A stretch of DNA of 42,887 nt from Lachnospiraceae bacterium (GTDB taxonomy: Bacteria; Bacillota; Clostridia; Lachnospirales; Lachnospiraceae), in contig JAAUZZ010000008.1 in NCBI GenBank assembly GCA_014804345.1, positions 7,199 through 50,085 on the forward strand, in the 5' to 3' direction. This document shows positions 7,636 to 13,940 of the stretch, in pieces; within the stretch, counting starts at the first letter, position 1, and the number at the start of each line of letters is the position of its first letter. The position numbers were made by a program, and so were the translations under genes. The notes beneath the pieces are model-generated. The model was not told the DNA's origin. It worked only from the letters and a program-made list of their open reading frames with translations, and did not search any database.

Positions 7636-8007
7636 TTGGAACTGGTTTACGTGACCGATAAAGTTGAAACACAATGTACGAGCGTAAAAGCAGCTAAAAA
7701 GTTATTTGGTGGAGATGCGATGTTAGCTCGAAGTCTTTTAGCGAGGATAAATGCTTTAAAAGAGGCTGATACAATAAAAGATATTATTGTTCAGCCGACG
7801 TTTCATTTTCATAAACTTGAAAATAAAAATGGAAAAAACTTAGAAGGATATTTTGCAATTGATGTAAAAACAAGGCGCGAACAATGGAGAATAATACTTC
7901 AGCTGTTGGATGAAAGTAAGAATCCATATCAGCCTTGTAATATTGACCAAATTGCAGGAGTAGTTAAAATAGTAGAGATTTCGGAGGTAAGCAAACATTA
8001 TGAGTAA
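7636..8007 (+). CDS. higB: HigB/RelE-like type II toxin
   Basis: A 123-residue basic protein of the RelE/ParE fold, plasmid-maintenance killer (HigB) type; family members cut mRNA on the ribosome. The central HFHKLENKNGKNLEGYFAID block, then a strand RREQWRIILQL, matches the core strands that carry the catalytic basic residues in HigB. The start is TTG at 7636 behind GAGGAG. The last eight bases overlap the start of the antitoxin gene, so the two are translationally coupled. The toxin-first gene order is typical of HigBA. Confidence 0.8.
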   Translation: MELVYVTDKVETQCTSVKAAKKLFGGDAMLARSLLARINALKEADTIKDIIVQPTFHFHKLENKNGKNLEGYFAIDVKTRREQWRIILQLLDESKNPYQPCNIDQIAGVVKIVEISEVSKHYE

Positions 8008-9079
8008 CTATATAGAATATAATGATACAATTGCCTTTCATCCCGGGTATTATATAAAAGAAATTATTGAAGAAAGCGGGCTTACACAAGAAGATTTTGC
8101 TAAAAGATTAGACACAACACCTAAGAACCTCAGTCTTTTAGTCAGAGGCGAGCAAAGCCTTTCTATTGATATTGCTATGAAGCTTTCCAGAATGATTGGA
8201 ACAAGTGTTAATTATTGGCTCAATCTTCAAAACGCTTATGATGCTTTAATCGCTGAATTTAAATCGCAAGAAGAATTGGTGGAAGAACGTAAAGTATTTG
8301 AATATTTTGATTATAAGTATTTTAGGGATAACTATGGATTGCCGGACCTTCCACGGAAAAAAGATGAACAGATTAAAAAGGTAAGAGAATTTCTCAATGT
8401 TGCAACACTTTCTGTTTTTGCCAAGAGAGATATGGCTGTAAGCTTTAGAAGTTCAACGCAGGAACTTACGCAAGCAAGTACGATTAAAGCGAATGTAATG
8501 GTACAGATTGCAACGAATAAGGCATTGAAAACTGAGGCGCCAAAGTTCAATAAAAAGAAGTTTGAAGAAGCTGTTGCATATGCTTTGACACTTACCAGAA
8601 ATCATGGAGAATTTTATTCACTAATTAGAAAATCTTTTAATGATGCAGGGGTGATATTTATTATATTGCCAAATATTTCCGGTTCTAAAACAAATGGGGC
8701 AACCAAAAAAGTTGGTGATAATATAATGCTTATGGTGAATGATAGACGCCTTTATGCAGATTCATTTTGGTTTACACTATTTCATGAAATAGGACATATT
8801 TTGAATGGGGATTATGGGATTTCATTTGAAACGGAAACAGGGGAACAGGAAGAAGCCGCAGATAAGTTTGCAGAGGATAGCTTGATCCCACCCGAAAAAT
8901 ATCAGGAATTTGTGGAGAAAAGGCAGTATGATCTGCAGGCAATTAGATTATTTGCAAATCAGATAGAACGTGATCCGGGAATTGTACTTGGAAGATTACA
9001 GAATGATGGGATTGTAGGGTTTGATGATTGGACTATGAAACCATTAAGACATAAGTACAAGGTTAAAACAGTAAGGTGA
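8000..9079 (+). CDS. higA: HigA-like antitoxin: XRE HTH fused to ImmA/IrrE metallopeptidase
   Basis: A 359-residue fusion. Residues about 12-85 form an XRE helix-turn-helix (HPGYYIKEIIEESGLTQEDF opens the HigA-type domain). Residues about 200-320 form an ImmA/IrrE-type zinc peptidase with HEIGH at 262-266 and an acidic EQEEAADKFA segment (282-291) giving the third ligand. In ImmA the peptidase cleaves a repressor to induce a mobile element; in this architecture the domain may allow the antitoxin to be inactivated under stress. That is inference. It overlaps the toxin gene by eight bases. It is about three times longer than a plain HigA. Confidence 0.85.
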   Translation: MSNYIEYNDTIAFHPGYYIKEIIEESGLTQEDFAKRLDTTPKNLSLLVRGEQSLSIDIAMKLSRMIGTSVNYWLNLQNAYDALIAEFKSQEELVEERKVFEYFDYKYFRDNYGLPDLPRKKDEQIKKVREFLNVATLSVFAKRDMAVSFRSSTQELTQASTIKANVMVQIATNKALKTEAPKFNKKKFEEAVAYALTLTRNHGEFYSLIRKSFNDAGVIFIILPNISGSKTNGATKKVGDNIMLMVNDRRLYADSFWFTLFHEIGHILNGDYGISFETETGEQEEAADKFAEDSLIPPEKYQEFVEKRQYDLQAIRLFANQIERDPGIVLGRLQNDGIVGFDDWTMKPLRHKYKVKTVR

Positions 9080-11182: not shown

Positions 11183-11324
11183 TATGTGTCCTCCATTGCT
11201 TTTTCAATAGAATTATGATACCATAACTGCAAAGGAATTATGGTAAGTTTATGCCCATTCGGGCACGTATAAAATCTATCGACATTATACTATGAAAAAA
11301 GAAAATTGGAAAGGGGATTATTTT

Positions 11325-11351
11325 ATGAAACGATATGTTATGTCTGCATAG
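11325..11351 (+). CDS. 8-residue leader peptide 1 (MKRYVMSA)
   Basis: ATG with the SD AAAGGGGA (11310-11317) and eight codons ending GCA TAG. It lies about 80 bases before the CD3324-family start. The final Ala codon and stop are part of the first arm of a hairpin. A second leader of the same length, also ending GCA TAG before the same sequence block, occurs at 11811. Two independent copies with good SDs make translation likely; a role in ribosome-dependent control is inferred. Confidence 0.6.
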   Translation: MKRYVMSA

Positions 11352-11393
11352 CATTGGCTATTGCAATGAAAATGAAATTGTTATAGCCAATGC
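11345..11393 (+). promoter_or_regulatory. Alternative hairpins before the CD3324-family gene
   Basis: Structure 1 pairs TGCATAGC (11345-11352), which contains the leader's last codon and stop, with GCTATTGCA (11357-11365), one bulge. Structure 2 pairs GCATTGGCTAT (11351-11361) with ATAGCCAATGC (11383-11393), a perfect 11-base stem. They share bases 11351-11361 and cannot form together. This is the layout of an attenuator whose fold depends on a ribosome at the leader stop codon. There is no U-tract after structure 2, so translational or RNA-stability control is more likely than termination. Confidence 0.6.
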
Positions 11394-11428
11394 GATTCCT
11401 AAAAAAATATGAATTTAGGGAGGCAGAC

Positions 11429-11710
11429 ATGGGCTATATAAGAGCAGAAGAAATTCTGCCCGTTGAGGTAGTGGAACTGATACAACAGTATGTTGACGGA
11501 ACAAACATCTATATTCCAAGAAAGCAGGAAAACCGGCAGGAATGGGGAACCAAAACCGCATACAAATATGAACTGCAGATCAGGAATGATTTCATTTATA
11601 AAGAGTATTTGTCCGGCGCGACAATTTCCGCGTTGGCAGAAAGCTATTTTTTATCCGAAAAAAGCATACAACGGATTATCAGACAAAAAAGAGTATCAAA
11701 TGTGAGCTGA
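11429..11710 (+). CDS. CD3324 family protein, putative HTH regulator
   Basis: A 93-residue protein of the CD3324 family (Mor-activator-like) found in Clostridia. The N-terminus MGYIRAEEILPVEVVELIQQ is typical, followed by VDGTNIYIPRK and a C-terminal helix-turn-helix (residues about 62-90: SGATISALAESYFLSEKSIQ, ending in a basic RQKR). The fold suggests a small DNA-binding regulator; the target is unknown. AGGGAGG lies six bases before ATG 11429; the frame continues upstream to 11390 without an SD. It follows leader peptide 1 and its alternative hairpins and is closed by a terminator. Confidence 0.75.
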   Translation: MGYIRAEEILPVEVVELIQQYVDGTNIYIPRKQENRQEWGTKTAYKYELQIRNDFIYKEYLSGATISALAESYFLSEKSIQRIIRQKRVSNVS

Positions 11711-11733
11711 CAGAAGTTGGCTCATATTTTTTT
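11703..11733 (+). terminator. Terminator of the CD3324-family gene
   Basis: TGAGC...GCTCA stem (about 11703-11724) with partly paired inner bases, then ATATTTTTTT. The stem overlaps the stop codon. Confidence 0.7.
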
Positions 11734-11810
11734 ATAAGAAAGTTTAAGGTAGGTATGCTTGTAAATCTTTGTTAAACTATAGATAAATCGATAGGAAAGG
11801 AGCTTGATTT

Positions 11811-11837
11811 ATGACAACACCCGTTTACTTTGCATAG
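11811..11837 (+). CDS. 8-residue leader peptide 2 (MTTPVYFA)
   Basis: AAAGGAG (11796-11802), eight bases, ATG, eight codons ending GCA TAG. Same length and same last two codons as leader 1, but a different peptide, so what is kept is the end of the frame and the RNA downstream, not the peptide sequence. It precedes the DUF1062 gene. Confidence 0.6.
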   Translation: MTTPVYFA

Positions 11838-11889
11838 CGCGGCTATTGCAAATATTTAAAAAGGTAATAAGGAATGTAATAGCCTGCGC
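11829..11889 (+). promoter_or_regulatory. Alternative hairpins before the DUF1062 gene
   Basis: Structure 1 pairs TTTGCATAGC (11829-11838, including the leader's last codons and stop) with GCTATTGCAAA (11842-11852), ten pairs with one bulge. Structure 2 pairs GCGCGGCTATT (11837-11847) with AATAGCCTGCGC (11878-11889), one bulge. They are mutually exclusive. The block TGCATAGC-nnn-GGCTATTGCAA is shared with 11345-11366 upstream of the CD3324-family gene. Confidence 0.6.
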
Positions 11890-11919
11890 ATCAAACTATA
11901 AATGATATAGGAGATGCAA

Positions 11920-12501
11920 ATGAGTTATTTAAAGAAAATTGAATTTGAAATGATACAACAAGAATCTTTTTTTGTGATTCGAAACTGTTCCAAATGCGGG
12001 AAAAAGACACATTTTAAAAACACAAAAAAATTCCGCGTTAATGCCAATGGGAATAAATTGGACGTTTGGTTGATCTATCAATGTGAGCAGTGTAAGCATA
12101 CGCTTAATCTTGCAATTTATGAGAGGCAAAAAATATCTTCCATACCAAAGGATGAATACGAGCGCTTTTTAGACAATGATGAGCAGCTTGCAGAACTGTA
12201 TGGGAAAAAGATGCAATTGTTTCAGAAAAACAAAGCAGTTATTGATTTAAACAGATTACATTACGACTTTGTAAAGCTGCATGAAACAACAGAAAACAGC
12301 GATTGTAACGAGCGGATTTTACTGCAAATACATAATGCTTATGAACTAAAAATACGCCCCGAAAAACAAATTGCCGTGGTTTTAGGATTGTCCAAAAGTC
12401 AGGTTCAAAAAATGATACAACAAGGAGAAATCGAACTGATAAATGTTACTTCACAATGTGTGTCTGCTTATGTAAATCTTATTGTATGTTATATACAATA
12501 A
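11920..12501 (+). CDS. DUF1062 domain-containing protein
   Basis: A 193-residue protein of the DUF1062 family. A probable zinc ribbon is formed by C23-x2-C26 (NCSKCGKK) and C55-x2-C58 (CEQCKHT), and a conserved block FRVNANGNKLDVWLIYQ lies between them. The C-terminal 50 residues contain an HTH-like segment (PEKQIAVVLGLSKSQVQKMI, residues about 147-166), so it may bind DNA or RNA. Molecular function is not established for the family. ATG 11920 is chosen because AGGAG ends six bases before it; ATG 11914 directly abuts the SD. It follows leader peptide 2 and its alternative hairpins. Confidence 0.75.
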   Translation: MSYLKKIEFEMIQQESFFVIRNCSKCGKKTHFKNTKKFRVNANGNKLDVWLIYQCEQCKHTLNLAIYERQKISSIPKDEYERFLDNDEQLAELYGKKMQLFQKNKAVIDLNRLHYDFVKLHETTENSDCNERILLQIHNAYELKIRPEKQIAVVLGLSKSQVQKMIQQGEIELINVTSQCVSAYVNLIVCYIQ

Positions 12502-12698: not shown

Positions 12699-12845
12699 AT
12701 TAAAATGGCTGATTTTATAGAGTTCTCCAAAATGGAGAGCCATTCTCCCGCTTGGAGGTTGCTTGTAAGATTATACTGATATATACTTTCAATACAGCGC
12801 TTGGCTGTAAGAATAACATCTGTGGTATTACTGGGAGGTAAAGTG

Positions 12846-13940
12846 ATGGATCAAATTAAAATCGAAAAATTCATCTCAGATATGAGGAGAAAGCAAGGTA
12901 TGACGCAGAAGCAGCTGGCAGAGCAGCTCAATGTGACAGATAAGACTGTATCCAAGTGGGAGACCGGATACAGACTGCCGGATGCCGCGATTCTTTTAGA
13001 ACTCAGTTCCGTGCTGAAGGTAGATATTAACGAGCTTCTTGCGGGAGAGGAATTTTTACCCAAAGAGCTTTCACAGGAAGAATATGAAAAAAAGACCGAG
13101 CGCAGTATTGTTGGTCTGGTCAGCGAATTGAATGAAATTGACAAGCGAAGCAAGAGTAAGAGCATTGGTACGATTGCAGGCATTTCACTGATTGGTCTGG
13201 CTCTTTTGCTACTCTTTACTTCGTCGTTGCGAGAGGGGAGATTCCTCGATATTATTGATATGCCAACTCTGATTTATCTGCTCGGACTGAAATTTTCTGT
13301 TCTGTCTATTTCCGGCTGGTTTCATGACTATCTGAATGTCTGGAAAGCGTGCTTGCTCGGAAAGGTTATACGGATGGTCACAAATAATTTGGATCAATTT
13401 GTACAGGGGGGCAACGCATATGGAGACTATATGCTTGTCCTCTCAAACGGAACAGATAAATGGGAATACGCAAAGGAATTGGCGGAGAAATATAATGGAC
13501 AGTTTTCTTTCATCGCATCAAAGTCAAACGGAGAAAATATTTCAGGCGCTCTGAAGCCTGCTGTCTGGACCATTTTGATGTTCCTGCTTCTTGTTACAAT
13601 CTTGACCACCGTAAACCTAACCTTTATTTTAATCCGGCGGGAACAGCGGCTTATTGGTTTGCTGAAAGCCCTGGGAATGACATCCTGGCAGATCCTAAGG
13701 ATTTATTCATGGAGGAATTGTTTGTCGGCCTTAGTGGGGACCAGTCTGGGGATTGTACTTGGGATATTCGTGACCCCCGGTTTGCTGACTCCATATGCCA
13801 TTACGGAATTTCCATTTATAAATTCTCTGACAGGAATGGTAATAAGTTTTGCTTTGCTCCCGCACTGTATGCTCCTAAGTACATCCGCAGTTATAAAAGT
13901 AATCAGTACAGTATCTGTAAAGCAACTGGTGAGTGAGTGA
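12846..13940 (+). CDS. Chimera: XRE-type membrane regulator fused to FtsX-like ABC permease C-terminus
   Basis: One open frame of 364 residues with two unrelated halves. Residues 1-70 are an XRE helix-turn-helix (MTQKQLAEQLNVTDKTVSKW), followed by a linker, one membrane helix (about 122-138) and part of a second segment to about 165. From about residue 172 (VIRMVTNNLDQFV...) the sequence is the C-terminal part of a FtsX-like permease: an extracytoplasmic segment ending SGALKP, then four membrane helices with the typical RREQRLIGLLKALGMTSWQI (about 260-279) and a final VSVKQLV. No ATPase or permease N-terminus is nearby. It probably arose by an in-frame deletion between a regulator and a neighbouring ABC permease. 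GGGAGG precedes ATG 12846. Confidence 0.75.
   Translation: MDQIKIEKFISDMRRKQGMTQKQLAEQLNVTDKTVSKWETGYRLPDAAILLELSSVLKVDINELLAGEEFLPKELSQEEYEKKTERSIVGLVSELNEIDKRSKSKSIGTIAGISLIGLALLLLFTSSLREGRFLDIIDMPTLIYLLGLKFSVLSISGWFHDYLNVWKACLLGKVIRMVTNNLDQFVQGGNAYGDYMLVLSNGTDKWEYAKELAEKYNGQFSFIASKSNGENISGALKPAVWTILMFLLLVTILTTVNLTFILIRREQRLIGLLKALGMTSWQILRIYSWRNCLSALVGTSLGIVLGIFVTPGLLTPYAITEFPFINSLTGMVISFALLPHCMLLSTSAVIKVISTVSVKQLVSE

Follow-up and report, generated by a model that had tools for sequence, protein, structure and literature searches.

Two copies of a single RNA element stand in the window (the whole 42,887-nucleotide stretch of Lachnospiraceae DNA analysed here), one before a gene of the CD3324 family and the other before a DUF1062 gene, and this element is best filed as a new RNA family working like a leader-peptide translational attenuator. 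We put the probability that it is such an attenuator at about 0.74. The finding is real and broader than had been stated in an earlier note on this DNA. The core of that note, a shared leader-plus-switch before the CD3324 and DUF1062 genes, has good support from its recurrence, from covariation and from the leaders found. Comparison of copies shows a leader, alternative helices, a Shine-Dalgarno sequence (SD) in arm 4 and a near-exclusive link to the two gene families.

Each copy has a short upstream ORF that carries its own SD and overlaps arm 1 (Table 1); the earlier note had described two eight-codon frames with strong SDs, both ending GCA TAG, and both are there. The two arms TGCATAGC and GGCTATTGCA form a small hairpin, helix 1:2, of -8.0 kcal/mol in copy 1 and -8.4 kcal/mol in copy 2. 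Alternatively, GGCTATT can pair with ATAGCC downstream, which gives the long stem 2:3. Both foldings were found in both copies, so the mutually exclusive hairpins proposed before hold; what had been missed is the decisive arm 4, which contains the SD region of the main gene and pairs with the strand that follows ATAGCC. In copy 1 this helix 3:4 joins 11391-11393 and 11396-11403 to 11423-11425 and 11414-11421 (TGC and TTCCTAAA with TTTAGGGA and GCA), and in copy 2 it joins 11888-11892 and 11896-11900 to 11913-11917 and 11906-11910 (GCATC and CTATA with TATAG and GATGC). The layout is that of ermC-type translational attenuators: helices 1:2 plus 3:4, with the SD hidden, versus helix 2:3, with the SD eased. 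When arms 1 and 2 are paired, arm 3 is free and the SD of both main genes is consequently hidden. Taken alone, the small 1:2 hairpins do not stand out from shuffled sequence (z -1.2 and -1.9). The folding of the whole elements does, by a wide margin (z -4.7 and -4.0; none of 200 shuffles is as good).

Table 1. Positions of the element copies, their leaders and the genes behind them in the window
Feature	Position	Strand	Details
Leader ORF 1, MKRYVMSA, 8 codons + TAG	11325..11351	+	SD AAGGGG 8 nt upstream; ATG 11325; TAG 11349-11351; ends GCA TAG
Copy 1 arm 1, TGCATAGC	11345..11352	+	contains end of leader ORF 1
Copy 1 arm 2, GGCTATTGCA	11356..11365	+	partner is arm 1, or arm 3 via 11351-11361 (with upstream neighbours)
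Copy 1 arm 3	11383..11403	+	11383-11393 with 11351-11361; 11391-11393 and 11396-11403 with arm 4
Copy 1 arm 4	11414..11425	+	contains SD GGGAGG (11418-11423) of CD3324 gene
CD3324-family (Mor-type HTH) gene, 93 aa	11429..11710	+	ATG 11429; NF040785 107.7 bits; Pfam Mor; fold like Mu Mor
Intrinsic-terminator-like hairpin at end of CD3324	11698..11729	+	
Leader ORF 2, MTTPVYFA, 8 codons + TAG	11811..11837	+	SD AAGGAG 8 nt upstream; ATG 11811; TAG 11835-11837; ends GCA TAG
Copy 2 arm 1, TGCATAGC	11831..11838	+	
Copy 2 arm 2, GGCTATTGCA	11841..11850	+	
Copy 2 arm 3	11875..11900	+	11875-11889 with 11837-11850; 11888-11892 and 11896-11900 with arm 4
Copy 2 arm 4	11906..11917	+	contains SD AGGAG (11909-11913) of DUF1062 gene
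DUF1062 gene, 193 aa	11920..12501	+	ATG 11920; PF06353 131 bits

A covariance model, R1, was built from 16 copies with the leader excluded, both window copies being among the 16. In the host genome it matched exactly the two window places. An earlier sequence pattern found copy 1 there, together with two places elsewhere that carry three mismatches; copy 2 escaped this pattern because its loop is shorter. In 391 genomes of the class, R1 had matches in 29, and 23 matches of at least 44 bits lay in 19 genomes. All 22 readable ones among these 23 strong matches finish where a CD3324 or DUF1062 gene starts. Loci were available for 10 of the 13 weak matches, and these contain neither gene within about 3 kb. 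Three of 398 genomes of the phylum, the host genome included, had a match at E 1e-4. Of 196 genomes of the order, 17 were found to have DUF1062 and 58 to have CD3324. Among CD3324 loci, 17 of 29 searched (30 were fetched) matched R1 beside the gene, many of the 17 having been used to build the model, and 12 of the 29 gave no match; L011 and L032 were left out of this count as sister copies.

A regular-expression scan of the fetched loci revealed the same block upstream of many DUF1062 and CD3324 genes, and a pattern scan of a genome collection yielded at least 117 stretches; the collection pattern has GCATAGC, GGCTATYGC and ATAGYC as fixed letters, whose conservation there holds by construction. 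Records among the matches listed include Lachnospiraceae, Oscillospiraceae, Clostridium, Clostridioides, Sporomusa, Pectinatus, Lysinibacillus, Heyndrickxia and Sporosarcina. After seven copies at locus ends had been set aside, 136 of the 139 distinct copies were seen to lie before a member of the two families (98 CD3324, 38 DUF1062). At L104 the element lies beside a hydrolase, without a CD3324 gene; the matches at L118 and L164 appear to be due to chance. Three loci within the 136 (L089, L105, L162) have broken CD3324 genes, with in-frame stops or a lost start, and an element that looks intact. Out of 100 sources searched, 97 had a match and 17 of those had two, so two copies per locus are common. 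The covariance-model search suggested in the earlier note finds strong matches recurring before CD3324 and DUF1062 genes, and the helices covary; lack of covariation and lack of recurrence, which that note had named as refuting its proposal, were not borne out.

The same note knew of no described RNA with this consensus. This agrees with our searches: no family of Rfam 15 matched in the window at or above its gathering cut-off (at E up to 10, positions 11200-12000 gave six weak matches only, to unrelated eukaryotic and viral families), and we found no description of this RNA in the open-licence literature on CD3324, DUF1062, leader peptides or attenuators. Two similar blocks 486 nt apart might also be taken for a repeat, a recombination site or an operator rather than an RNA switch. 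Such a reading is disfavoured and can hardly be right, as the element keeps a fixed orientation and distance to the start codon, shows pair covariation, carries a leader ORF and occurs in many genera; a CD3324 match (E 1e-5) turned up in no phage record and in two plasmid records.

An in-frame leader of exactly eight codons ending GCA or GCG TAG is present in 115 of the 139 copies, where the regular expression behind the copy set fixes GC(A/G)TAGC, and thereby the leader-final Ala codon and the TAG, not the eight-codon length, and where the leader script prefers an eight-codon start if an SD is present, under a loose SD rule. Since the TAG is fixed by the pattern in the 139 copies, the model-found set is the fairer one. 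It comprises 24 copies, 22 from the class search (both window copies included) and 2 from the phylum search. Of these, 21 have a leader of 7-14 codons that is preceded by an SD and stops within the hairpin, at the arm 1 TAG in 17 and at the end of arm 2 in 4. In controls, such leaders were seen at 172 of 4000 random positions and at 85 of 1327 (6.4%) other TAG sites in the same loci; control ORFs ending at the very TAG numbered 36 of 1327.

The main leader type before CD3324 is M(R/K/T)RYV(M/I)xA, and before DUF1062 it is MTTPVYFA. Further types are MTRDIFNA, MAVNKMCA and MFDLIFIFA, plus leaders that run through arm 1 in a different frame, as ..LC(I/V/A/L)A(K/R)A(I/V)A, and stop at the arm 2 end (L038, L045, L052, L054, L057, L063, L065; the variant leaders of L038, L045 and L063 were seen by eye only, and the leader scan accepted no start for L063). 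Several peptide types thus use one RNA scaffold, which extends to many copies what the earlier note had seen in two, namely that the peptides differ while the RNA block and the frame end are kept. Between the first Met and the final Ala, no amino acid is common to RRYV, TTPV, AVNK, TRDI and the other types, and a run of codons for one amino acid, as in leaders of the trp or his kind, was not seen among them. In the DUF1062 class, purifying selection on the peptide is visible, pN/pS of the leaders being 0.63 in frame versus 1.16 and 1.62 out of frame. For the pooled CD3324-class leaders such selection is not clear (0.93 in frame versus 1.28 and 0.75 out of frame). One CD3324 copy, L049 (1744-1820), has kept the leader MRRRYVNAQ, and all its arms are replaced by other, still complementary sequences.

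Leader typing, pN/pS, the outward extension of helix 1:2 and the arm 3:4 energies drew on 131 of the 139 copies: L104, L105, L118 and L164 were removed, and the others left out had no usable start within 130 nt. The kept copies, 128 of them distinct, were divided into CD3324 and DUF1062 classes by a rough text rule. In 114 aligned copies, 95% of the cells of helix 2:3 are paired and 5 of its 12 pairs have changed on both sides. The two-helix covariation score is 0.300 versus 0.139 in shuffles, with slid versions at 0.051 or less; none of 500 shuffles reaches it, part of the SD-helix covariation in this alignment being due to register shifts. Shuffles here and below ignore the relatedness of copies, and their fractions are not probabilities. 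Helix 1:2 is 98.7% paired and mostly invariant, its letters being largely fixed by the search pattern. Its outward extension, assessed on pattern-free bases of the 128 copies, holds 1.97 pairs on average versus 0.86 in shuffles (0 of 2000 reach it), and nine copies show a U-A to C-G swap in the helix. Helices 1:2 and 2:3 are mutually exclusive, and they covary.

The extended 3:4 contact is paired in 76% of cells, against 54% or less in slid controls. By pair percentage it does not clearly exceed shuffles (40 of 500 do as well), but its covariation score exceeds most of them (5 of 500 reach it) and lies well above slid versions. The arm 3:4 duplex amounts to -11.3 kcal/mol in the CD3324 class, versus -6.0 with shuffled arm 3, and to -9.4 versus -4.9 kcal/mol in the DUF1062 class, one copy with ambiguous bases being left out of these energies. 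The main-gene SD lies in arm 4, which is paired with arm 3; cognate arms beat swapped arms in the DUF1062 class (-9.4 vs -8.0, p 4e-6) and are no stronger than swapped ones in the CD3324 class (-11.3 vs -10.9, p 0.11).

The high conservation of the arm cores, in part a consequence of how the search was built, would also suit autogenous control, where the protein made, DUF1062 or CD3324, would attach to the hairpin in its own mRNA and repress translation, the leader being incidental or serving for tuning. DUF1062 would be an apt candidate, having a zinc-ribbon-like part and a weak likeness to a ribosomal protein and to S4 domains. We nevertheless consider autogenous control unlikely. Two unrelated proteins are preceded by the same RNA, a leader is found in 21 of the 24 model-found copies, and cores with two pairing partners should be frozen in any case, whereas positions with a single partner covary.

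For the attenuator, we infer translation of the leader, stalling on it, the direction of the switch and a drug as its signal. As long as the leader holds no ribosome, the end of its ORF (arm 1) would pair with arm 2; arm 3 would then be left free for arm 4, so that the main-gene SD would be hidden. Should a ribosome slow down or stall within the first half of the eight-codon leader, it would cover arm 1, and arm 2 would stay free. Free arm 2 would take arm 3 and so loosen arm 4, allowing production of the CD3324 regulator or of the DUF1062 protein. The likely signal would be an antibiotic that targets the ribosome, or some other block of early elongation. The output step, which the earlier note did not identify, is most likely SD sequestration.

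Ribosome positions were explored in a folding model that covers the copies with an eight-codon leader and a readable SD (73 CD3324, 32 DUF1062). Without a ribosome, the median cost of opening the SD is 7.3 kcal/mol for CD3324 and 4.2 for DUF1062. It is lowest with codon 4 in the P site (5.6 and 3.1 kcal/mol), and with the ribosome from codon 8 to the stop it comes to 8.6-8.8 and 7.1-7.2 kcal/mol. The SD is easiest to open at P-site codons 3-4, and the gain of the best ribosome position over none is only 1.0-1.7 kcal/mol. Since opening is cheapest at codons 3-4 and dearest at the stop, a ribosome stalled early should favour opening, and one at the stop should not. The energy model thus does not favour stalling at the GCA-TAG end, the site suggested in the earlier note: placed there, a ribosome covers arm 2 as well and makes the SD harder to open. 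In the minimum-energy fold without a ribosome, helix 2:3 is already present together with a shorter SD hairpin. Given this resting fold and the modest energy effect, co-transcriptional folding probably matters, and the model suggests that the switch probably needs either such kinetic folding or a modest energy effect.

It might instead be leader translation itself that sets the switch, through initiation rate, growth or termination at Ala-UAG, and not stalling by a drug; for example, reduced initiation would turn the genes off, or slow RF1-dependent termination would turn them on. The variation of peptides between lineages would fit this, as would the leader end at the arm 1 UAG in 17 of the 24 model-found copies, but that UAG is also demanded by the pairing, and 4 of the 24 leaders read through arm 1 in another frame to end at arm 2. 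Moreover, with the ribosome at the stop, arm 2 is predicted to be covered and the SD to stay closed. This explanation appears fairly unlikely to us, and we prefer the attenuator opened by early stalling.

Transcription attenuators are common for resistance genes in Bacillota, and alternative stems might act here by controlling an intrinsic terminator. A simple consensus scan detected no terminator-like site with a U-run in either leader region, the hairpin at 11698-11729 lying at the end of CD3324. The last hairpin of the element contains the SD, and no U-run follows it. Control of a terminator is therefore very improbable, even if cplR of Clostridioides difficile is described as combining both kinds of attenuation (PMC10201436). 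As a terminator-like hairpin closes CD3324, each gene probably has its own transcript and DUF1062 is probably a separate unit.

The translational attenuator of ermC has a short leader ORF, helices 1:2 and 3:4 versus 2:3, and the main-gene SD in arm 4, and the present element is like it in all of these. Unlike ermC-type systems, it has an eight-codon leader whose end is arm 1, and several leader peptides on one conserved RNA; the main genes of ermC-type systems are rRNA methyltransferases, those found here a Mor-type regulator and DUF1062.

Three published leaders offer further comparison. That of cplR is described as a very short uORF (MR[I/M]) with an anti-SD element, in which a stalled ribosome opens translational attenuation, CplR giving resistance to pleuromutilins, lincosamides and streptogramin A (PMC10201436). 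The likeness lies in the very short uORF, the anti-SD element and attenuation opened by stalling; unlike our element, cplR is also said there to have transcription attenuation, and its gene and sequence are others. The topAI uORF of E. coli, before a toxin-antitoxin operon, is reported to sense several classes of ribosome-targeting antibiotics (PMC12121999); it is likened here by description alone, and its gene and host differ. The uORFC-6-1 motif is presented as a conserved uORF plus structure before hflX, a ribosome-related gene, in Bacillales (PMC8632094), and resembles our element in that combination, but it has an Arg-Leu-Arg leader motif and another gene. DUF1062 does not appear in the main text of PMC8632094.

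As to the proteins, CD3324 is a Mor-type protein by profile and fold. The window member matches Pfam Mor with 35 bits, above the cut-off of 24.9, and Pfam Mor matched in 61 of 61 CD3324 members scanned (E up to 1). Its best Foldseek row is Mu Mor, with a probability of 0.96 but E 0.1. Mean pLDDT of the AlphaFold models is 91.7 for DUF1062 and 88.0 for CD3324. The N-terminal part of DUF1062 has four invariant cysteines (C23 C26 C55 C58) and is zinc-ribbon-like, and its C-terminal part is weakly S4- or winged-HTH-like. Matches to the S4 profile are weak (3 of 34 members, best E 0.0034; RsuA E 0.14), and helix-turn-helix or Xis-like matches are as good. Kinship of DUF1062 with a ribosomal protein, CarD or S4 cannot be claimed on a likeness this weak. 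Elsewhere in the window, 12801-13940 encodes an HTH_3 protein with an FtsX-like C-terminal part, and 8000-9079 a HigA-type HTH joined with an IrrE-like peptidase domain.

Among the loci listed (at least 117), genes neighbouring the element include relatives of two groups of GNAT acetyltransferases in 14 and 12 loci, two of methyltransferases in 12 and 5, DUF1062 in 45, an alpha/beta hydrolase in 7 and RsgA-RNHCP in 5, the families being single-linkage groups each named from one representative. They lie mostly downstream, on the strand of the element, and part of the CD3324 genes have the acetyltransferase, methyltransferase, hydrolase or RsgA-RNHCP genes behind them. All four MAVNK-type leaders in this survey adjoin the hydrolase, which relatedness could explain. 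At L152:5504-6733, downstream of CD3324, an RsgA GTPase is fused to an RNHCP domain; no open-licence literature with both RsgA and RNHCP was found. The acetyltransferase, methyltransferase, hydrolase and RsgA-RNHCP neighbours make a role of the regulated genes in drug response plausible, as far as gene content can tell.

About 60-230 nt before other CD3324 genes, we noticed a second arrangement, unrelated in sequence, with a longer leader, a GCAAAG-like arm, a later complement and an SD hairpin. It was recognised by eye in 9 of 12 loci devoid of R1 (L022, L029, L030, L034, L043, L044, L046, L050, L051). The far arm was reached by at most 5% of shuffles in 6 of 11 such loci tested (L030 left out), and not in the other 5.

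We also advance, tentatively and at less than even odds, a wider reading, in which the scaffold would be a general sensor of ribosome state, with exchangeable eight-codon peptides each tuned to a different inhibitor, and would control a defence regulon, inducible and so far undescribed, in Clostridia and Bacilli. The second leader class seen before other CD3324 genes, unrelated in sequence, would point in the same direction. If this reading is true, the regulon would consist of the Mor-type regulator CD3324, the ribosome-associated zinc protein DUF1062 and cargo enzymes acting on the drug or the ribosome, these being the acetyltransferases, methyltransferases, hydrolases and RsgA-RNHCP. More generally, the element would be a widespread RNA family marking genes induced by translation stress in gut and soil Bacillota. 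CD3324 and DUF1062, both families of unknown function, gain a testable role from it, and the adjacent enzymes become candidate antibiotic-response genes. Several peptides on one RNA, finally, offer a natural series on what pauses a ribosome after three or four residues.
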